Assembly: GCA_030539495.1 (NCBI GenBank)
Contig: JAUNRX010000027.1
Coordinates: 1-34,257, forward strand
DNA length: 34,257 nt
DNA from: a bacterium
Lineage (GTDB): Bacteria; Bacillota; Clostridia; Lachnospirales; Lachnospiraceae
Direction of reading: 5' to 3'
Positions 257 through 34,257 of this stretch are shown here, piece after piece (the first letter of the stretch is position 1; the number at the start of each line of letters is the position of its first letter). The notes under the pieces were generated by a model. It was given only the letters and a program-made list of their open reading frames with translations, was not told the DNA's origin and searched no databases. Both the position numbers and the translations under genes were made by a program.

Positions 257-456
257 AGGGAACTTATCTCACTCACAGCGCCAAACCCGGGGGAAGGTAT
301 GGAAACCATCGGTGTCCTTTGGAATCATTTTTCGGGGATTCACTCCCCGAAAAATGGAAAGAGCTAGTGCCACGCAAAGCGTGACACTAGCTCTTTCATT
401 ACCTCCAGCACCGGATGAAATCCTGATTTCATCCGAAGGCACCGTCCTCGGTGCCG
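257..456 (+). repeat. Four-hairpin structured element, copy 1
   Basis: The conserved lead-in AAACCATCGGTGTCC is followed by four hairpins. Hairpin a (327-355) has a perfect 12-bp stem, ATTTTTCGGGGA with its complement, and a TTCAC loop. Hairpin b (358-396) has a 12-bp outer stem beginning AAAGAGCTAGTG, one C/A mismatch and a 5-bp inner stem. Hairpin c (412-435) is a 24-base palindrome built on GGATGAAATC. Hairpin d (438-455) has arms GGCACCG and CGGTGCC with a TCCT loop. The block ends 4 bases before the stop codon of the minus-strand oxidoreductase gene and may serve as its transcript 3' end. The same hairpin order is found at 7730-7901 and 20355-20508. Function and family are unknown to me. 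Confidence 0.85.
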
Positions 457-459
457 CCC

Positions 460-1719
460 CTAGAAGAATCTTTCTACAAGCTCTTTAGAGTACTGAGCAA
501 CCTCATTCATATCTCCAAAACTCATAACCTCACCAGCATAGTAAGTGTTTAGGTTTCCCTGCCAGCTTTCTACTGTATCATACCAGCCATTTTTATATTC
601 ATAGCTATTCACGTGAGGGAAGTAATACCATGATTTATGTAATACGATATTGTCCACTTCAAAACCACAAAGCTTCATATCTTCTTCGATTAATTGTTTG
701 GATTCTTCCACACCGATTTTTTCATTTCGATCCCCTAATACATATACTGTAATGATTTGGTCAGGTTCATTTTCCCAACGGTGATAATATACCATAGCAT
801 GTCCTGAACGGTGAGGAACCATATTTTCCTGAATATAAGCACTGATTTCTGGATAGTTCTTAACTGTACAAGCAAATACTTTATAATCCTCATTGATGAT
901 CTTAGAGAAATATTTTTGTTCGTCTTCTGTCACATCAAAGAAGTTCTCCATCTGATCAAGTGGGGAAGTAACGATAATTTTATCATATTCTTCTTTTCCA
1001 AACTCTGTATATACATAGACTTTTCCATCTTTACGGACAACTTTGCTAATCTTAGTTGCAAGTCTTGGTTTATTCGCAAGCTTGTAGCTTAAGCGTTCCC
1101 AGATACTTTGTGCTCCGTCTTTCCAAGTCCATAACTGTTTCTTTAAGAATAGTAATAATTCATTGCAATCAAGATATTTAAATACATATGCTGCAGGAAT
1201 TAAATCCAAATATCCGTATCCAAATGAAGTAAATGGATTTAACCAAAGTTTCTTTACTAAAGGCACTCCATTTTTTTCACAGAATTCTGTAAATGGTACT
1301 GCTAAGTCAGGATGAGTTCCCATATGTCCATTTTTCTCACAGTTTGGATATTTTGTCTTTAACAGAATTGCAAGTTTTTTCAATTGTCCCATAATTTCAG
1401 GACCTTCTGCAGGGTTAAATGGTTCTTCCACTTCTCCTGTATATGCATTACGGAATTCACGATCGAGCGCTGGACCATCGGGCTCAATTCCACAGTAATC
1501 CATAACTTCTTTCACTGCATAGTAGCATTCCGCTCCCATTAATGCACCCATTTCATAACGTTTTCCTTTATAGTAAGGAGAATAGCATTTACCACCTACA
1601 TAATCTTCTTTTTCAAGAATGGTGTAATTGGTATACCCCTTTTGTTCTAAATACATAGCTGCACTTAATCCGGCAGGACCTGCGCCAATAATACAAATAC
1701 GTTCGTCAAATTTCCTCAT
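460..1719 (-). CDS. FAD-dependent oxidoreductase (amine oxidase / protoporphyrinogen oxidase-like fold)
   Basis: The 419-residue protein opens with a dinucleotide-binding beta-alpha-beta unit: GAGPAG at residues 12-17, an acidic residue ending the second strand (E36), then VGGK near 41-44. This is the usual FAD site of the NAD(P)-binding/amine-oxidase superfamily. The late segment TYYAGEVMSFGD resembles the C-terminal FAD-contact region of these flavoproteins. No signal peptide or membrane segment is evident, so it is probably cytoplasmic. The substrate cannot be inferred. I chose the ATG at 1719 because GAAGG lies 7-8 bases upstream and the Rossmann motif follows at once; a TTG start at 1764 would add 15 charged residues without a good ribosome site. 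The stop codon directly abuts the hairpin element. The gene is transcribed divergently from the DUF11 gene. Confidence 0.8.
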   Translation of the reverse strand: MRKFDERICIIGAGPAGLSAAMYLEQKGYTNYTILEKEDYVGGKCYSPYYKGKRYEMGALMGAECYYAVKEVMDYCGIEPDGPALDREFRNAYTGEVEEPFNPAEGPEIMGQLKKLAILLKTKYPNCEKNGHMGTHPDLAVPFTEFCEKNGVPLVKKLWLNPFTSFGYGYLDLIPAAYVFKYLDCNELLLFLKKQLWTWKDGAQSIWERLSYKLANKPRLATKISKVVRKDGKVYVYTEFGKEEYDKIIVTSPLDQMENFFDVTEDEQKYFSKIINEDYKVFACTVKNYPEISAYIQENMVPHRSGHAMVYYHRWENEPDQIITVYVLGDRNEKIGVEESKQLIEEDMKLCGFEVDNIVLHKSWYYFPHVNSYEYKNGWYDTVESWQGNLNTYYAGEVMSFGDMNEVAQYSKELVERFF

Positions 1720-1988
1720 TTCTTTGCCTTCTTTCTCTTTATTTTTTTCATTGATGCATATCAATCTTGCATCTCATATGTGTATTACATTTATGTAACT
1801 AGCTTCCCTATTTTACCATAAAGCTTTGATACAGACAACATGTAGTTATAAAAACTACATAATATTTTTATAAAGACTTATCGAATATTGTAGTTTCCTT
1901 AGTTGTCCTGTCACAATTCCAAAATGCAGGAATAAAATATAGTAACTACAAGTATGTATTTTTATTTCAGGAAAGGAATGACAACTAG
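1720..1988. promoter_or_regulatory. Divergent intergenic region with repeated TGTAGTT / AACTACA half-sites
   Basis: This 270-base AT-rich region separates two divergent genes. It holds an 8-bp inverted repeat, ATGTAGTT (1840-1847) and AACTACAT (1853-1860), and a second, wider pair, TTGTAGTT (1888-1895) and AACTACAA (1944-1951). The four half-sites share TGTAGTT or its complement, suggesting a binding site for one dimeric regulator. No convincing sigma-A promoter for the DUF11 gene is visible. A weak sigma-K-like arrangement exists: CACA at 1912-1915, then 16 bases after the AC an AATAAAATA (1931-1939), compared with the CATANNNTA consensus. A plausible ribosome site, GGAAAGG, lies just upstream of the DUF11 ATG. 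Confidence 0.4.
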
Positions 1989-4900
1989 ATGTCGATAGAC
2001 TTTCGAAAAGAATTTACTATTAAAGGTGGAATGACTTTTACCGGAAATACTCTCGGTTTAGCAAAAAAAGAAAACGAACTGAATGCTGGAATTGTAAACT
2101 CAATCGGAACCTTTACCTCCTTAAACACCAATATAAAACAAGGCAATTTTCCCTTAGGAACCACCCTAAATTCCGCACAAAATGGTTCCTATGCTTACTT
2201 AAACCTTCCACAGACAGCACAAATCGTATATGCAGAATTACTCTGGGCCGGAACCTGTGCACTTCCTGCTGCATCTGGATATCCTGCACAAACTATCACA
2301 AATCAAGCAATTGACTCCAATGTAATTACACTACAAACTCCAGACAGAACAAATCGTGCTGTAGTAGTAGATGATAATACTATAAAATACCGTGGTACTA
2401 ATGTCACAAATCAACAATTTTATGTCCGCAGCAAGGATGTAACTGATTTACTCTTACTCTCTTCACGAGATGACCTACGATTTGCAGTTTCAAATGTTCC
2501 TGCACTGATCGGACAATATGAAACTCAGAATGGTTACACTTGTTTCGCCGGCTGGACATTAATGGTGATTTACGAAGATCACACCATGCCTCTTCGAAAT
2601 ATGGTACTATCTGTTGGTGGCGAAATCATCAATAGCTATAGTGAAGATGTAATTATCCCTTATTCCCATTTTGTAACTCCTAAAAACGGGAATTTTAATG
2701 CAAGGATCTTAATAACCACAGCTGAAGGCGACACTGAATATCATGGTGACTCAGTTTACTTTGCCCCAACAATGGATGATTTAAAAGAACCTGCCTTTAT
2801 ATTATCCGGTCCTAGAAATCCATCTGATAATTTCTTTTGTTCACAAATTAATAAGGATGATGGAACACTGGATGAATCCGGATCCTTTGGTACTTTAAAT
2901 AACATTCCCGATCCTATAGACTTAATGTCAGCAGCAAGACAAGGATGGGATATTACCAATATTAATGCTAGCAGATATATGACAAACAACCAACAAAATG
3001 CATTTCTACGTCTGACTACCAGCCAGGATATCTATATGCCTATGGCAATTGGTACACAAATTGATATGGAACAACTTAATCTAACTGTGATCAAATCTGC
3101 AACTCCATCTGATAACAGCCTTGTATCCATTGATCAGACAATTACTTATACACTTTCCATCGCTAATGATGATGCTAGTTTAGACGGCAAGGATATCCAT
3201 ATCCTTGATTCTCTGCCAACCGGTCTATCCTTCGTTCCAAACAGTGTCAAAATAAACGGAGTCGAAAATCCTTCCAATATAACGACTGGTGACGGTGTAA
3301 CGATTCCTGATTTACCACCTAACTCTTCGCCTGTGATTGTAACTTTTGACGCAGTTGTATCAGGACTTCCAACTCCTAATACAACGTATGACAATATAGC
3401 TCGCGTAACCTTTACCTATAGCCCTGCTCCTACCATTACAAAGACAGTAAGCACGTTTAGCAACATCATTAAACACAGGCCATTTATTGATAGCTCTAGT
3501 TTCACTAAAACAGTAACTCCTGACAGAGCACTTACTCCACTTTCTACACAGACTTTCACACTCTCCTTTACAAACAATTCAAACGAGACCATGACTCGTG
3601 TGACCCTGATGGATTCACTAGATTCTCAATATACCTTAATAAGCGAACCAACCTCTTTATTTGACACCGGTATTACTTATTTAGATATTCCTGCAGGAGA
3701 AACCGTGTCTACCAGCTACACCGTACAGATTAAGCAAGGAACTAACCGCAGTCTTAAAAATAATGCATCCGCCAGCTATACCTATACTAGTGGATTTACC
3801 GGAACTAAGACAGCAGCAATTACAACTCCTATTCTTGTTCCTTCTATAGACATTGTAAAAAGACAAAATAAAAACACTGTAATTAAAGACGACACTGTAA
3901 TCTATTCTCTAAGAATAAGAAATACTGGATTTGCTCCCCTCGCCAATCTATCCATTTCCGACCTACTCCCTACCGGTTTAACGTATGTTCAAGATAGCCT
4001 TACCATTAATAATGAAATCATATCCGGTCCGATCGACTTAAGCGACTATACACTTCCGGCAAAATACGCTCTACCAAACAATGGAAGTACCATTACTATA
4101 CAGTTTACTGTACGGGTAAATGACATATCGGAAGCACCATTTACAAATAATGCATCCGTGCAAGCCTACTATCCTGTATATAACTCAGATGGAACTATAT
4201 CACAAATGATTTCTGATCAAAGCAACGATGTAATCCTAAATGCAGCCACACCTACCCTTAACGTAAGCAAACAAGCTGACAAGACATTAATCAAAGCGGA
4301 TGGAACCGATATTGTAACCTACCGCATTAGAGTGCAGCCATCTGGCTCTGCTACTAATTTCATCTTGCAGGAAGGGCGCCCAATCACTCTTGACAAAGAT
4401 ACCATGAGTATTGACGAAGCAAGTATTACTGTGAATGGAATCGCCGATTTTACACTTGACATTCAAAAAGATGCCGTAGGAGACGTTATCGGTTTTACCG
4501 TTACTATTCCATCAATTGCTGCAACTGACGATATTACAATTACCTTTGAAGCCTCCGCTTCAAAGCTTGAGCCTGGCGGTTCTTCAAGAACATTCTCAAA
4601 TACTGCTGATTACGAATATTACTATCCAAAAGATCCAGAAAATCCAACTGAAGAAATAAAAGTTGATAACTCTACGTTTCCTCCTCAATTTGTAACACAG
4701 GCTGCAATTAATTTAGACTTAACTAAAGTAATTACAAATGAGCAGGAAGAGGAGATCAGTCAGGCCTTTGTTGGTGATACCGTTACAGTTTCCATCGGAG
4801 TTTCAAACCCTGGAGATACCCCAGTTGAAGTAAATATTATAGAAGATCGTGTCCTAGAATTAAATAAATTTACACCGGTGCCTGGTTCGATCACTCTAAA

Positions 4901-7667
4901 GACCAATACGGGTGCAGATGTTCCATTTACTCCTAGCATAGATCCAATTACCGGAATAATCACTGTAGCATTGTCAACACCACAGGAGCTTTCTACTGAC
5001 GAAGGGCTTACGCTCTCATTTAAAGCAGTTGCACTCAACAAGGCTGCAGGTTTAAATTATGACTATGGTGTTGTTAAATTTAACGAACCAGATTCCACAT
5101 TTATTCAAACCGTATTGACTCCAATTGCCGAACTCTTTGTTGCTAATCCATCGATTCAAATTAGCAAACAAGCAGATATCGCTACTGTAGAAGAAGGCGA
5201 TAGTTTTGAGTATGAACTTCTTGTTACTAATACTGGAAATATCCGTTTAACAAATGTAAGTCTTTCCGATACAAAATTAGCTGCCTATATTGCAAATGCA
5301 AATCTAACAATAAACGGGGACATTACAGTAAATGGATCCGTCCTTCAAACCCCTGACTTATCCAATGTCCAACTTCCTAATTTAGAAATTAATGCAGTTC
5401 ACACAATCCTAATTCCAGTAACTGCTACGCTGCTTCCAGACTCTAATGTATACGAGAATACTGCCACTGTTTCTACTATAGCAACCATTGAGTCTCCAAG
5501 AGCACGTGAACTTAAAGTACGCCACGAGGATACTTCCATTGTAAATGGCTATTATCTCAATGTAATTCTTACAAAAAGTGCTGCACAAGAAGTTGTAAAA
5601 AATGGCGATACCATTTCTTATACAATTACCGTAGAGAATGCATCTAGTGTTGCAATCGATCATGCTTATGTACAGGATATTATCCCAAAAGAACTCATTG
5701 TAGATGAAGCAAGTATTATCCCTGCCGGAAACTTAGAACTTGGCATCGACGTCGGACCTATGCAACCTGGGGAGACTGCTACTGTAACATTTGACGCAAT
5801 TGTTGACAATCCAGACAACATAGGAGAAATTCAAAACTGTGCCTATGTAAATTACTCACATATTTGGAATGACGTTACGATTTGTGGCCAGTCCTCTGTC
5901 GCTTGTTTCACTATACGCTATATTAATCCTGAAATCAGCGTCATCAAGTCAGCTCCAGCTAAAGAGTATATTCTTGGCAGCCAGTTTGACTATACTATTA
6001 CAATCAAGAATACAGGCCTGACTCCTATCACCAGGTTAGAATTTAGCGATCTGCTTCCTGTCGAACTCTCTTTAACTTCTAAAACTATAGTGGTAGCACA
6101 AGGAGACAATTCCACTACTGTTTCGATCGACCTAACTACTCCTGATTTCCATACGTTACCTTATAACTTTGCAACTGATAATACGGATATCATACTCACA
6201 ATTCCTGTTACGGTAACTTCCATTCCGAATCCAGCCAGTCCAACAGATTATTTGGATAACATTGCGACAATCCTTTACTATTTTAATCAGAATGACGAAG
6301 AACAATCCTTGCAGGCAATCTCTAATAAAGCAACGGTCCGCATTATTTACCCACTTATTTCAACATCCAAACAAGCCTATCCGATAACAGCAAAACTAGG
6401 AAGCACTATCCTTTATATGATCCGAATTGATAACCACGGTAATACTCCACTTACTAACATTACTGTGACAGACACTTTGCCTGAAGGCATGGAGTTTGTA
6501 GAAGAATTCAGTTGGTTAAATGGTCTCCGCTATCCTGCTACGATTACGGAAGGCATTAAAATTGCTACTTTATACACTGGTGGAATTGCTACTATTTCTT
6601 TCCTTGCAAAAATCACCGAAGTTGCCAACGATGGTATTTATATAAATAGGAGCACGTATTCCTATAACTATAGATTAAATGATGAGTTCAAATCCATTAC
6701 AAATCAAAAGACCAATGAAGCAGTCGTAACAATTTCAACTGGAGAAAATGCTTCCATGAGCATTGTAAAGAGCTCATCAGACCAAACGGTACGTCGTGGC
6801 GACATCGTAGACTATATGCTTGTTGTTAGCAATACTGGAGATACTCTTTTGACCGATATTATAATTAAAGATACTCTCCCATCCGGTTTAGAATTTGTTT
6901 CCGGATCACTAGCAATCGATGGCACAGCTACTGACTACGACATTACGTCCGACGCAGGCGTCCCTCTTCCAACTTTAGATACCAAAGACTCCCAAAATAA
7001 GAGATCGTCTATTATCACATTCCGTGTGAAAGCCACCTCACCTCTGCAATTAAGCTACCATAATACAGCAACCGGAACCTACAATTACGAGACGAGTACC
7101 GGAATTGTAACTGGCACTAGTACTAGCAATACCCATATACTGAGAAATGCCGCTCTTTCTGTAACTAAAGAAGTAGATAAGACTCAGGCTGCTCCAGGCG
7201 ATACACTAAACTATACCGTAATAATTAAGAACGAAGGCAATACGACAATAACAGATCTAAACTTCTTGGAATTTACAGATACAAAAGTAATTGTTGATAC
7301 TTCAAATGTAATGTTAAATGACTTGTTAGTTACCGGTTTCCCTAATATTGAAATTGGAACACTAGCAGCCTCCGGTTATCCTGATGACACTGCAATACTA
7401 ACGTACTCCGCGAAAATCAAAGACGATGTAGCTAACTCCTCGATTGTAAATAAATTAGTTGTAAAAGGTTCCACTATTGATAATAAGGATCTGGTTGCAA
7501 GCGATTATACGGTTACCAACCTTCTCTCTCCTTGCAAAGAATGTCCTGAATGTCCAAAATGTGATAAATGCGATAAGCCAAACGGCAAAGGTCCTAAACC
7601 TCCAAAAACAAATGGACCAAAGGTACCAAAAGTAAAGGCCCCTAAACCTCCAAAGAAATCTTGCTAA
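1989..7667 (+). CDS. Giant DUF11-repeat protein with Cys/Lys/Pro-rich tail
   Basis: The protein has 1,892 residues. Residues 1 to about 360 form a distinct N-terminal region with GGMTFTGNTLGLAKK near residue 13. Then come eleven repeats of about 130 residues, each opening with a strand such as LTVIKSA, VSKQAD or SVTKEVD and containing YTLSIAN- or YELLVTNTG-like and LPTGLSFV-like motifs. These are typical of DUF11, an Ig-like beta-sandwich repeat found in cell-surface proteins. The tail (about 1848-1892) has five cysteines spaced CxxCxxCxxCxxC, then KPPK-type lysine/proline segments and a final cysteine. There is no N-terminal signal peptide, no LPXTG and no transmembrane helix. A spore-surface or other cross-linked outer-layer role is therefore possible but is inference. 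The ATG at 1989 has GGAAAGG about 12 bases upstream. A structured element and a terminator follow. Confidence 0.85.
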   Translation: MSIDFRKEFTIKGGMTFTGNTLGLAKKENELNAGIVNSIGTFTSLNTNIKQGNFPLGTTLNSAQNGSYAYLNLPQTAQIVYAELLWAGTCALPAASGYPAQTITNQAIDSNVITLQTPDRTNRAVVVDDNTIKYRGTNVTNQQFYVRSKDVTDLLLLSSRDDLRFAVSNVPALIGQYETQNGYTCFAGWTLMVIYEDHTMPLRNMVLSVGGEIINSYSEDVIIPYSHFVTPKNGNFNARILITTAEGDTEYHGDSVYFAPTMDDLKEPAFILSGPRNPSDNFFCSQINKDDGTLDESGSFGTLNNIPDPIDLMSAARQGWDITNINASRYMTNNQQNAFLRLTTSQDIYMPMAIGTQIDMEQLNLTVIKSATPSDNSLVSIDQTITYTLSIANDDASLDGKDIHILDSLPTGLSFVPNSVKINGVENPSNITTGDGVTIPDLPPNSSPVIVTFDAVVSGLPTPNTTYDNIARVTFTYSPAPTITKTVSTFSNIIKHRPFIDSSSFTKTVTPDRALTPLSTQTFTLSFTNNSNETMTRVTLMDSLDSQYTLISEPTSLFDTGITYLDIPAGETVSTSYTVQIKQGTNRSLKNNASASYTYTSGFTGTKTAAITTPILVPSIDIVKRQNKNTVIKDDTVIYSLRIRNTGFAPLANLSISDLLPTGLTYVQDSLTINNEIISGPIDLSDYTLPAKYALPNNGSTITIQFTVRVNDISEAPFTNNASVQAYYPVYNSDGTISQMISDQSNDVILNAATPTLNVSKQADKTLIKADGTDIVTYRIRVQPSGSATNFILQEGRPITLDKDTMSIDEASITVNGIADFTLDIQKDAVGDVIGFTVTIPSIAATDDITITFEASASKLEPGGSSRTFSNTADYEYYYPKDPENPTEEIKVDNSTFPPQFVTQAAINLDLTKVITNEQEEEISQAFVGDTVTVSIGVSNPGDTPVEVNIIEDRVLELNKFTPVPGSITLKTNTGADVPFTPSIDPITGIITVALSTPQELSTDEGLTLSFKAVALNKAAGLNYDYGVVKFNEPDSTFIQTVLTPIAELFVANPSIQISKQADIATVEEGDSFEYELLVTNTGNIRLTNVSLSDTKLAAYIANANLTINGDITVNGSVLQTPDLSNVQLPNLEINAVHTILIPVTATLLPDSNVYENTATVSTIATIESPRARELKVRHEDTSIVNGYYLNVILTKSAAQEVVKNGDTISYTITVENASSVAIDHAYVQDIIPKELIVDEASIIPAGNLELGIDVGPMQPGETATVTFDAIVDNPDNIGEIQNCAYVNYSHIWNDVTICGQSSVACFTIRYINPEISVIKSAPAKEYILGSQFDYTITIKNTGLTPITRLEFSDLLPVELSLTSKTIVVAQGDNSTTVSIDLTTPDFHTLPYNFATDNTDIILTIPVTVTSIPNPASPTDYLDNIATILYYFNQNDEEQSLQAISNKATVRIIYPLISTSKQAYPITAKLGSTILYMIRIDNHGNTPLTNITVTDTLPEGMEFVEEFSWLNGLRYPATITEGIKIATLYTGGIATISFLAKITEVANDGIYINRSTYSYNYRLNDEFKSITNQKTNEAVVTISTGENASMSIVKSSSDQTVRRGDIVDYMLVVSNTGDTLLTDIIIKDTLPSGLEFVSGSLAIDGTATDYDITSDAGVPLPTLDTKDSQNKRSSIITFRVKATSPLQLSYHNTATGTYNYETSTGIVTGTSTSNTHILRNAALSVTKEVDKTQAAPGDTLNYTVIIKNEGNTTITDLNFLEFTDTKVIVDTSNVMLNDLLVTGFPNIEIGTLAASGYPDDTAILTYSAKIKDDVANSSIVNKLVVKGSTIDNKDLVASDYTVTNLLSPCKECPECPKCDKCDKPNGKGPKPPKTNGPKVPKVKAPKPPKKSC

Positions 7668-7689
7668 GAAATAAACACAAAAAGCCTTA

Positions 7690-7901
7690 GAGACAATAAC
7701 TCCAACGCACAGCTTGGGAGAAAGTTTGAAAACCATCGGTTGTCATTCCAATCAATATCCGGAAACCGCGCTTTTCGGATATTGGATTAGTGCGAATAGG
7801 TCCCGTATTTTAGGGACTTGCACGAGTGAGCACTAATCATTTCATTCAGGGAATGGATGAAATCAGGATTTCATCCAAGCTTGGCGACTTTGTCGACAAG
7901 C
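7690..7901 (+). repeat. Four-hairpin structured element, copy 3 (diverged)
   Basis: The block begins shortly after the DUF11 stop codon and keeps the lead-in AAACCATCGGT and the order a-b-c-d. Hairpin a (7753-7784) has arms CAATATCCG and CGGATATTG, extendable with a G-T pair. Hairpin b (7785-7838) has GATTAGTGC and GCACTAATC, with an inner GTCCC/GGGAC stem. Hairpin c (7854-7877) is a palindrome on TGGATGAAATC. Hairpin d (7879-7901) has GCTTG..CGAC pairing with GTCG..CAAGC around a TTT loop. The stems of a, b and d differ entirely from copy 1 yet still pair, while the lead-in and hairpin c are nearly identical. It has no tandem head modules. Confidence 0.75.
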
Positions 7902-7940
7902 AAAAAAGACCTATGGACTTATGCCCATAGGTCTTTTCTA
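7902..7940. terminator. Bidirectional intrinsic terminator between DUF11 gene and efp
   Basis: A perfect 13-bp stem, AAAAGACCTATGG (7904-7916) with CCATAGGTCTTTT (7925-7937), has an A-run on one side and a T-run on the other. It lies between convergent genes and follows hairpin d of the structured element directly. Confidence 0.85.
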
Positions 7941-7996: not shown

Positions 7997-8554
7997 CTAA
8001 AGTCTCTTAAGATAATCGCCTGTACGAGTATCGATTTGGATTCTGTCTCCTTGGTTTACGAATAATGGTACGTAAACTGTTGCTCCAGTTTCAACTGTTG
8101 CTGGTTTAGTAGCACCTTGAGCTGTGTCACCTTTTAATCCTGGTTCACATTCAGTGATTTCTAATTCAGCGAACATTGGAGGTTCGATTGCGAATACTTC
8201 GTTGTTATGAGATAACATTTTAACCATGTCATTTTCTTTAACAAATTTTAAAGAATCGCCAATTGCTTCTTCAGATAAAGCAAATTGATCGAAAGTTTCA
8301 ACATCCATGAAGTGGTATAATTCACCATCAGAATATAAATATTGTTTATCACTTTTGTCAATGTGTGCTTGTGGGCATTTTTCAGTTGGTCTGAAAGTTT
8401 TTTCCACAACACCACCGTTTTTAATATCTCTAAGTTTAGTTCTTACGAACGCAGCACCTTTACCTGGTTTAACGTGTTGGAAATCAATAACTTGATATAC
8501 GCTGTTATCGTATTCAATTGTTAAGCCATTTCTAAATTCGCCTGCTGATACCAT
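7997..8554 (-). CDS. efp: Translation elongation factor P
   Basis: This 185-residue protein has the full length and three beta-barrel layout of EF-P. EF-P binds ribosomes stalled on consecutive prolines, between the P and E sites, and promotes peptide bond formation. The N-terminal barrel carries the loop [12 protein letters not shown], with K32 at the position that is post-translationally modified in many bacteria. The C-terminal signature is seen as [20 protein letters not shown]. No EpmA/EpmB-type modification gene lies nearby. The start at 8554 follows AGGAGGAA closely. It lies last in a minus-strand run uppP-yqeG-aroK-efp, but the 155-base gap before it contains a promoter, so it can be expressed alone. 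Confidence 0.97.
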
Positions 8555-20289: not shown

Positions 20290-20508
20290 ACAAGGGAACA
20301 CTTGCTTTTCCCTTGCTCGCACTCTTCCGTCACGCCAACAAGGAGAGGTCCGGGAAACCATCGGTATCCTTTGGAATCACTTTCCTGGGATTCACTCCCC
20401 GGAAACTTAGAAAGAGGTAGTATCACGCTCCGCATGACACTACCTCTTTCATTACCTACAGCACCAGCTAAAACCCTGATTTTAGCTGAGGGCACCGTCC
20501 TCGCTGCC
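20290..20508 (+). repeat. Four-hairpin structured element, copy 2
   Basis: It begins with a head hairpin (20291-20315, arms CAAGGGAA and TTCCCTTG), then linker words CTTCCGTCA, GAGAGGTCCGGG and AAACCATCGGTATCC. Hairpin a (20381-20405) has one T/C mismatch and the TTCAC loop. Hairpin b (20411-20449) has arms AAAGAGGTAGT and ACTACCTCTTT: relative to copy 1 a C-G pair is replaced by G-C. Hairpin c (20465-20488) has arms CAGCTAAAA and TTTTAGCTG, replaced on both sides relative to copy 1. Hairpin d (20491-20508) has GGCACCG and CGCTGCC with a TCCT loop and one mismatch. Its end overlaps the 3' end of the lipid kinase gene. Confidence 0.85.
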
Positions 20509-21399
20509 ACGTACCTTAAATGATATTGCATGTTTTAAATTATAAATATCTGCTTCCTTTAAGTTGCCCCCAAATTCTCCATCCATCGTCCAAGGAACCA
20601 TTTCGTCAGAAACAAAACGGACATGGCTCGTATGGAAAGAAATTATATGCTTGCTTGTCTTATCTTCACTAAGTAAGGCATTGATAATGGACTGAAGCTC
20701 AAGGGCATTATGAGGAGGCTTAATCAGCGTTACCTCGAACATACCGTCATTTAACGATACATCCGGTCCATTTAAGCCTTTAAATCCACCAATTGAGTTA
20801 GAATTACTAACCATGCCGTAAAGGAACGTATCATCGATTTCCTGATCATCATAGTATACCTTGTAATGATAGGATTGTAGACTTGGAATACGCTTTACTC
20901 CTTCAAGCAAATATGCCAGTCTTCCAAACATATTTTTAACGGTCTGGCTTGTCGCATAGCTAACATCGGTAAAAGCACCAAATCCTGCTACATAAATAAA
21001 ATAATCATCATTTAGCTTACCTAAGTCATAAGGAAACAAATCCCCCTCAACAATCGTCTTAGCGGCTTCTACCATGTTCTTTGGAATGCCTAAGCTCGTT
21101 GCACAATCATTGGTGGTACCAGTTGGAATATATCCACAAGGTGGCTTCTTCTCACATTGCATAATTCCCATCGCAACTTCATTTAAGGTGCCGTCCCCAC
21201 CAGAGCAAGCCACCACATCGTATTCACTGCCATATTTGGCAACGATCTCAGTCGCATCATTTCTTCGTCTTGTCGCATGAACTGTAACTTCATAGTCTGC
21301 ATTCGAAAAAGTTTCGAGTATATAAGATAGCTTGCTTCTTATCACTCCTTTTCCGGCAAAAGGATTATAGACAAATAATAACTTCTTTCGATCCAACAT
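20482..21399 (-). CDS. Diacylglycerol kinase-family lipid kinase (YegS/DagK type)
   Basis: The 305-residue protein has YNPFAGKG near the N terminus, the nucleotide-binding SGGDGTLNEV, and PTGTTNDCATSLGIP, the signatures of the DAGK catalytic domain shared by DgkB, YegS and sphingosine kinase-like enzymes. It should phosphorylate a lipid such as diacylglycerol at the membrane; the exact substrate is unsure. ATG 21399 is preferred, with GAGGG 5 bases upstream; a GTG at 21405 would leave almost no spacer. It follows queA by 18 bases, so the two are probably co-transcribed. The last eight residues, GSEDGALS, and the TAA stop come from hairpins d and c of the structured element, so the native C terminus has apparently been replaced. 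Confidence 0.9.
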   Translation of the reverse strand: MLDRKKLLFVYNPFAGKGVIRSKLSYILETFSNADYEVTVHATRRRNDATEIVAKYGSEYDVVACSGGDGTLNEVAMGIMQCEKKPPCGYIPTGTTNDCATSLGIPKNMVEAAKTIVEGDLFPYDLGKLNDDYFIYVAGFGAFTDVSYATSQTVKNMFGRLAYLLEGVKRIPSLQSYHYKVYYDDQEIDDTFLYGMVSNSNSIGGFKGLNGPDVSLNDGMFEVTLIKPPHNALELQSIINALLSEDKTSKHIISFHTSHVRFVSDEMVPWTMDGEFGGNLKEADIYNLKHAISFKVRGSEDGALS

Positions 21400-21417
21400 A
21401 ACCACCCTCTTACTTAT

Positions 21418-34020: not shown

Positions 34021-34112
34021 ATAATTCCTCCTATTTAAAAAAAGAAAGCCTGCTACTACTTAAATTATACCTTAACCTGAGCACATTTTTTATCATATTA
34101 ATACTTTTCAAT

Positions 34113-34257
34113 CAGAAAATTCAGACGTACCTTCTCCAATTTTTCGCTCTCAGCCTTCCGTCATCCGCAGGAGAGGTCCGGGGAACCCTCGGTTCCCAGC
34201 TCTTTTCACTCCAAACAGAAAATTTGGACGTACCTTCTCCAAATTTTCGCTCTCAGC
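34113..34257 (+). repeat. Structured element, copy 4 (tandem head modules, cut by window end)
   Basis: Two units start at 34113 and 34216 (period 103). The second carries a perfect 11-bp hairpin, GAAAATTTGGA (34218-34228) with TCCAAATTTTC (34238-34248); the first has a weaker version. Between them the linker CTTCCGTCA...GAGAGGTCCGGGGAA matches copy 2, and GGGAACC / CTC loop / GGTTCCC (34181-34197) corresponds to the GGGGAA-CTC-TTCCCC hairpin of copy 1 with altered but still paired arms. The a-d block, if present, is outside the window. Confidence 0.8.

Follow-up and report, generated by a model that had tools for sequence, protein, structure and literature searches.

BOX and REP/BIME elements are dispersed, modular, hairpin-forming and extragenic, and REP sequences occur in 3′ UTRs, where they stabilise 3′ ends. 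MITEs are short and geneless, have inverted ends that match those of an autonomous IS, and are flanked by a target duplication. Among autonomous elements, IS1272 and TnSha1 of staphylococci, both of the IS1182 family, insert at hairpins that share no sequence consensus and are in many cases transcription terminators; insertion is reported to remove part of the hairpin without duplicating the target (PMC4923244). A survey of IS positions places IS1182 among the families that are over-represented where genes converge (PMC9208149), which fits a terminator target.

The family analysed here is likewise dispersed, modular, hairpin-forming and extragenic. Compared by description rather than sequence, it is unlike BOX and REP/BIME elements in standing flush at stop codons, in its tandem units of ~100 bp and in its link to IS1182. 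Our best explanation of the whole, to which we assign a probability of roughly 0.68, is a single modular hairpin element in two lineages, type B being a MITE and type A a 3′-UTR element. Type B resembles MITEs in being short, without a gene, and bordered by IS-matching inverted ends and a target duplication; it differs from them in its interior of five conserved hairpins with covarying stems and in having a sister lineage, type A, that is without these ends. Like IS1272 and TnSha1, type B targets hairpins, many of them terminators, but the complete hairpin is duplicated, over 19–39 bp beside type B and 21–61 bp beside the IS elements, in contrast to the hairpin deletion reported for IS1272. 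In type A, hairpin c has the shape of an intrinsic (rho-independent) terminator, although its T-run is weak; unlike such terminators, it belongs to a five-hairpin unit, and in the loci read a separate terminator lies beyond a tandem array.

The window, the whole stretch of DNA analysed, is an entire contig (C176; 34,257 b) of a draft genome (G000; 3.96 Mb, 257 contigs). It was compared with three congeners, of which G001 is a draft, G002 is 76% complete and G003 is complete; L-numbers denote single loci extracted from the genomes compared. The lead-in AAACCATCGGT occurs exactly three times in the window, at 303, 7730 and 20355, each time heading the same layout. With at most one mismatch, these three occurrences compare with 0.46 expected, and none of 100 shuffles of the window reached three. 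A preliminary description had treated the three loci as copies of a single family with hairpins a to d and conserved loops and linkers. Those loops, linkers and hairpins are present at 257–456, 7690–7901 and 20355–20508, except that the 20355 copy is without most of the head, and a further conserved hairpin lies at the gene end (438–455, GGCACC-GTCCTC-GGTGCC). Reading copies side by side nevertheless divided the presumed single family into two lineages with a common layout and linkers: type A, at 257–456 and 20353–20510, and type B, at 7690–7901. The 7690 copy, earlier taken to be like the others, belongs to another subtype, and its outer ends differ. A fourth locus said to carry the head module does so, and holds only the tandem head unit. 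The two types probably derive from one ancestor. The features of the window are the following.

1–255, no strand assigned: tandem head module, 2.6 units of 97 bp (repeat finding and TRF)
257–456, minus strand: type A core copy (alignments and covariance model; fold z −7.67)
299–321, minus strand: hairpin a, limits approximate, containing AAACCATCGGT at 303–313 (alignment)
326–356, minus strand: hairpin b, with conserved loop GTGAAT or GTAAAT (alignment)
357–397, minus strand: hairpin c, AAAGAGC../..GCTCTTT, terminator-like in gene sense (terminator scan)
412–435, minus strand: hairpin d, CGGATGAAAT..ATTTCATCCG (alignment)
438–455, minus strand: hairpin e, 4 nt past the stop codon of gene 460–1764 (alignment)
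460–1764, minus strand: gene upstream in sense, ending at the element (orthologous arrangement in G001, L061)
7690–7901, minus strand: type B copy, one end decayed (L031; at least one end missed by the end-finding script)
7886–7901, minus strand: e-side inverted repeat of the type B copy, GACTTTGTCGACAAGC
7906–7937, no strand assigned: terminator-type hairpin beside the type B copy (self-complementary match; missed by the simple terminator scan)
20353–20510, minus strand: type A copy, head truncated (covariance-model match 20341–20510)
34109–34257, no strand assigned: tandem head module again, about 1.4 units, with a different locus-specific hairpin (repeat finding)

Read in gene sense, on the minus strand, 257–456 runs through hairpins e, d, c, b and a and then a linker to the array; hairpin c corresponds to hairpin b of the preliminary description. 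The stem of hairpin e varies among copies, and its loop GAGGAC is invariant in the 20 aligned copies. Each unit of the array at 1–255 carries a locus-specific hairpin, GAGCAAAA-TTCAC-TTTTGCTC, and the contig start falls inside this array. The gene at 460–1764 we take from its sequence to be FAD-dependent oxidoreductase-like. Hairpin 7906–7937 lies between the type B copy and a presumably elongation-factor-P-like gene (7997–8554, minus). The type A copy at 20353–20510 overlaps the 3′ end of gene 20482–21405 (minus). At the far end of the window, the array at 34109–34257 probably continues into contig C124, which holds the type A copy L008, judging from the common unit sequence.

Searches of the window's own genome gave 44 matches with 257–470 as query and 76 with 7660–7935, partial and self-complementary matches included. 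With a covariance model of type A, matches to the two types at E ≤ 1e-6 numbered 41 in G000 and 57 in G001; in G003, whose genome is complete, a cutoff of E ≤ 1 gave 32, and the copies read there were all type B (5 by reading and 22 with both ends, the sets partly overlapping). Type A stands behind about 13 genes per genome. Further afield, a DNA search detected the family in 2 of 61 relatives, and a model search with strict filters and seven candidates scored per genome did so in 2 of 397 family genomes; both genomes belonged to the genus of the window in either search. Plasmid, phage and viral collections gave no match, two of these searches being made with type A only. A pattern search of genome contigs returned 16 stretches, 13 in the metagenome-assembled genome S2R_St_11 and 3 in other named genomes. 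These last three hits aside, every copy that the searches turned up came from the genus of the window. The preliminary view that no named family has this layout holds for Rfam, which gave 0 matches to the window at gathering score. Ten weaker Rfam matches at seven loci (E ≤ 1) were all below gathering and were judged to be chance. No description of the family was found in the open-licence PubMed Central literature.

Type B is very probably a non-autonomous IS1182-family mini-transposon that inserts into terminators. We tested 74 type B loci (30 from G000; 15 from G001, 14 of them chosen for matching both ends; 29 from G003), dropped 22 in which an end was not found, and kept 52. These copies are 230–237 bp long, and 46 lie between direct repeats that reach 18 bp or more (range 19–39 bp, at least 75% identity); the remaining six have no long direct repeat. 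By the script's simple test, 42 of the 46 flanking repeats are palindromic, and they are mostly complete terminator-type hairpins. Read in element sense with the e side first, the T-run past the second hairpin copy is the longer one in 39 of 46 cases, equal in 7 and shorter in none. The orientation of type B to the terminator is therefore fixed, and we infer that transcription entering from the e side would reach an intact T-run only behind the element. At L070 (G001), type B is inserted in hairpin c of a type A copy, and the hairpin is now doubled; the type A copy of the same gene in G000 (L002) is without the insertion. The ends, the hairpin duplication and this nested insertion beside its un-inserted ortholog are read directly from the loci. 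In co-directional cases, the e side of type B points toward the upstream gene 23 times and the reverse 6 times (p 0.0023); of all 52 copies, 17 lie at convergent gene pairs, none at divergent pairs, and 6 have a neighbour missing.

Individual type B loci show two further features. At L108 (1461–1770, G003), the terminator copies beside type B differ with both arms changed to match (CGACTAATTGTCG vs CGGCTGGTTGCCG). A hybrid copy at G000:C132:35998–36208 (L016, L023, L051) combines type A outer parts with a type B core, which suggests that the lineages may have exchanged segments.

The terminal inverted repeats of type B match the ends of IS1182-family elements, namely CAGACTGTAGACAAA at L105 and CAGACTGTAGAC elsewhere. 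At L105 (G002), the frame of an IS1182-family transposase fragment (NF033551, E 2.3e-50) terminates with TTT-CAGACTGTAGACAAA, and CAGACTGTAGACAAA there directly adjoins a terminator-type hairpin. Searching with this fragment identified relatives in 22 of the 397 family genomes and yielded 27 loci from other genera. Eight of these have inverted ends of this kind and whole-hairpin direct repeats of 21–61 bp; the other 19 have no such ends and hairpin repeats within the stretch tested. The ends CAGACTGTAGAC occur in IS1182-family loci of other genera (L169, L170, L171, L176, L181 and L182). Target and mode of duplication are common to type B (46/52) and the IS1182-family elements (8/27), and the G002 fragment together with the loci of other genera points to an IS1182-family transposase as the probable mover of type B. 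The mobilising enzyme envisaged in the preliminary description is accordingly retained for type B only, on its inverted repeats and hairpin duplication, and the indicated partner is an IS1182-family transposase, not a REP-type Y1 enzyme. Type A ends differ from the IS1182 type, and the copies read have no flanking hairpin repeat at the stop-codon side.

An IS1182 transposase was not found in G000 or G001, both drafts, and the IS1182-family gene of G003 was ruled out as the type B partner by its different ends; it also has a stop. Among 150 places matching the end pattern (25 in G003, 82 in G001 and 43 in G000; coordinates read by eye), none showed a longer, autonomous element bounded by the two type B ends. 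Lack of a cognate transposase within the same genome makes current type B activity less likely and leaves the proposed origin unaffected. In the mechanism we propose, an IS1182-family transposase would act on the type B ends CAGACTGTAGACAAA / CAGCTTGTCGACAAA and cut the hairpin of a terminator at its two bases, and gap repair would leave type B between two copies of that hairpin. The e side tends to point toward the 3′ end of the upstream gene, and since the second hairpin copy retains the T-run, type B is probably transcribed as part of the 3′ UTR.

Type A is the stranger half of the family, a structure-conserving element tied to stop codons. In the copies read, it lies directly behind the stop codon, and in gene sense hairpin e comes first. 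Of 26 copies tested, 24 have a readable frame, and in 18 of these the stop codon is separated from stem e by −1 to +6 nt. The gap is 10 to 41 nt in four, mostly with extra or duplicated modules or N between, and beyond −20 in two (L005, L012), where stem e lies inside the coding end. The stop is TAG in 19 of 26 type A genes, those of L007 and L061 being read by eye, against 33 of 120 in a background of genes taken from the window and from either side of type B and orthologous loci (p 2.3e-5); with one of each orthologous pair kept, the count is 14 of 19 (p 1.6e-4). Judging from this excess, the first G is probably part of the element. TRF found arrays of 97–110 bp units in 6 of 23 sequences (window start, L008, L012, L062, L067 and L069). 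Such an array often lies on the side of type A away from the stop codon. Its unit hairpin differs by locus and is nearly the same within the two ortholog pairs compared (window start/L061 and L008/L062), and a terminator A-run follows beyond the array in the loci read (L003, L012, L061 and L063).

Type A is common to G000 and G001 at seven genes (L001/L061, L002/L070, L003/L063, L004/L066, L008/L062, L009/L071 and L011/L074). Eight further orthologous ends hold a decayed remnant in four cases (L216, L218, L219 and L221) and no type A trace in three (L215, L220 and L222), and at one (L217) the contig breaks off; in G003, type A is missing from all six matching ends. Its absence without trace at L215, L220 and L222 means that it is not needed there. 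Shared at orthologous genes and decaying at others, type A is old. At two unrelated genes of G001 (L064/L067), a 238-bp stretch of element and array is 99.2% identical, reflecting either a recent copy or an assembly fault.

Covariation was assessed in an alignment of 20 type A copies from two species, with a structure from RNAalifold. Standard pairs fill 97.0% of 1,159 pair cells, and 34 of 58 pairs have double-sided changes (203 cells), including 11 of 17 pairs in hairpin c. The covariation score is 0.489, against 0.164 in shuffled alignments and no more than 0.120 when partners are slid; none of 500 shuffles equals the alignment on any measure, and sliding partners by 1–3 columns lowers pairing to 40–47%, although these controls flatter the structure, as the copies are related and the structure derives from the same sequences. 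The stems thus covary as the preliminary description had claimed, and its view that folding is maintained is supported in these copies. Orthologs differ by double point changes in hairpin c at L001/L061, L003/L063 and L004/L066, and whole stems are replaced in L008/L062 and L009/L071. Fold z-scores on the minus strand are −7.7 for 248–457 and −3.9 for 7677–7901. Coding potential was rejected because 1-nt indels in hairpin d shift every frame.

In an RNA of one sense under selection, G-U pairs are tolerated and A-C mismatches, which are G-U pairs of the other sense, are not. In gene sense, the ratio of G-U to A-C in type A is 1:1 for hairpin e (24 copies), 16:1 for c (23) and 6:2 for b (22), or 23 to 4 when pooled (p 3e-4, the copies not being independent). 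Counting distinct hairpins once gives 1:0 for e, 10:0 for d, 10:1 for c, 6:4 for b and 0:1 for a, where eight of the ten for d come from one nearly invariant outer U-G pair picked by the folding program. On the program's own pairs, the type A counts vary with the strand folded, at 48:8 or 17:18. RNAalifold energy favours gene sense for type A (−95.3 vs −88.4 for the opposite strand). Hairpin c has a weak T-run in the terminator scan and survives with seven T in the decayed copy L218. The wobble polarity supports transcription of type A in gene sense, clearly only at hairpin c, and selection at the RNA level on this hairpin, the same one called terminator-like in gene sense, is supported as well. 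For type B, there are 9 G-U against 12 A-C, the program pairs common to both strands are 7:7, and the opposite strand folds better (−60.2 vs −51.0 in gene sense). Neither this lack of polarity nor the better fold of the opposite strand favours type B as an RNA in gene sense, and the evidence leans against such a role for that lineage.

These counts bear on an alternative in which both types are DNA-only palindromes, their arms matched by template switching or arm-to-arm repair and neither having an RNA function. We consider this unlikely. The behaviour of type B agrees with it, as do the exchange of entire stems between copies (L008 vs its ortholog L062) and the near-identical 238-bp stretch at two G001 genes, signs that copying between loci may occur. 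Against it stand the 16:1 ratio of type A hairpin c, the changing of stems while loops and linkers are conserved, and the single base-pair swaps that separate orthologs. Of the causes that the preliminary description had offered for the matched arms, RNA folding gains from the excess of G-U over A-C in type A, strong only in hairpin c, and fails to gain in type B (9:12); arm-to-arm repair may still account for type B, given that same lack of polarity, and fits poorly with type A hairpin c.

A second alternative starts from type A as a regulatory or trans-acting ncRNA borne in 3′ UTRs and later captured by IS1182 ends to give type B. Such an RNA would consist of hairpins c, b and a as a multibranch core, which GAAGG/CCUUC closes, plus two fixed-loop hairpins outside it. 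Its fixed loops with replaced stems, the multibranch closing helix, the fixed orientation and spacing to stop codons and its retention at orthologous genes all suit this idea, which we nonetheless judge improbable: copies are decayed or missing at other orthologs, the searches made found one genus only and no Rfam match, and just one of the four pairs in the closing helix has changed on both sides. An origin as REP/BIME-type repeats, through a Y1 (RAYT) transposase, is far less probable still, for although modular extragenic palindromes at gene 3′ ends resemble BIMEs, the type B inverted terminal repeats match the IS1182 family and come with whole-hairpin direct repeats, features that Y1 insertion is not known to give.

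The most economical mechanism for type A is that of a 3′-UTR hairpin element with a terminator-like arm, which on position, conservation and wobble polarity we put at about even odds. Sharing layout and linkers with type B and having other ends, type A lies between stop codon and terminator and would be transcribed with the gene. Hairpin c would serve as terminator or 3′-end hairpin, its pairing kept by selection on RNA, and the other hairpins would be kept likewise, for a stable 3′ end, or through DNA-level processes. Type A may in this way affect mRNA ends. A bolder version, which we regard as something of a long shot, would make type A a new kind of 3′-UTR RNA element, multibranch, with fixed loops and free stems, flush at the stops of housekeeping genes, whose layout was adopted by IS1182 ends to yield a terminator-hunting mini-transposon; if true, an RNA-bearing mobile family would rebuild the gene 3′ ends of the genus. 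Type B offers a natural set of dozens of IS1182-type mini-transposon insertions that duplicate whole terminator hairpins in fixed orientation. In the sister lineage, fixed at stop codons, compensatory change can be traced stem by stem between orthologs. Both lineages make the role of repeated hairpins at gene 3′ ends testable within one genus.

Several minor observations accompany these loci. Comparison of window positions 20482–20531 with L220 indicates that the type A copy replaced the final residues of a protein we take to be kinase-like, and the congener's protein at L220 has a longer acidic tail. Window positions 1989–7667 (plus strand) encode a 1,892-aa repeat protein, perhaps surface-exposed, with a proline-/lysine-rich tail behind a cysteine-rich stretch. 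Past the terminators of L215 and L220, where type A is absent, lies a third multi-hairpin intergenic element with AATTATAGGAA..TTCCTATAATT and ACTTTGTTC parts. Near type A or B copies at L011 (900–1400), L013 (1730–1970) and L046 there is a further short repeat, also dispersed and palindromic, whose arms resemble TTGGGCATATA / TATATGCCCAA.
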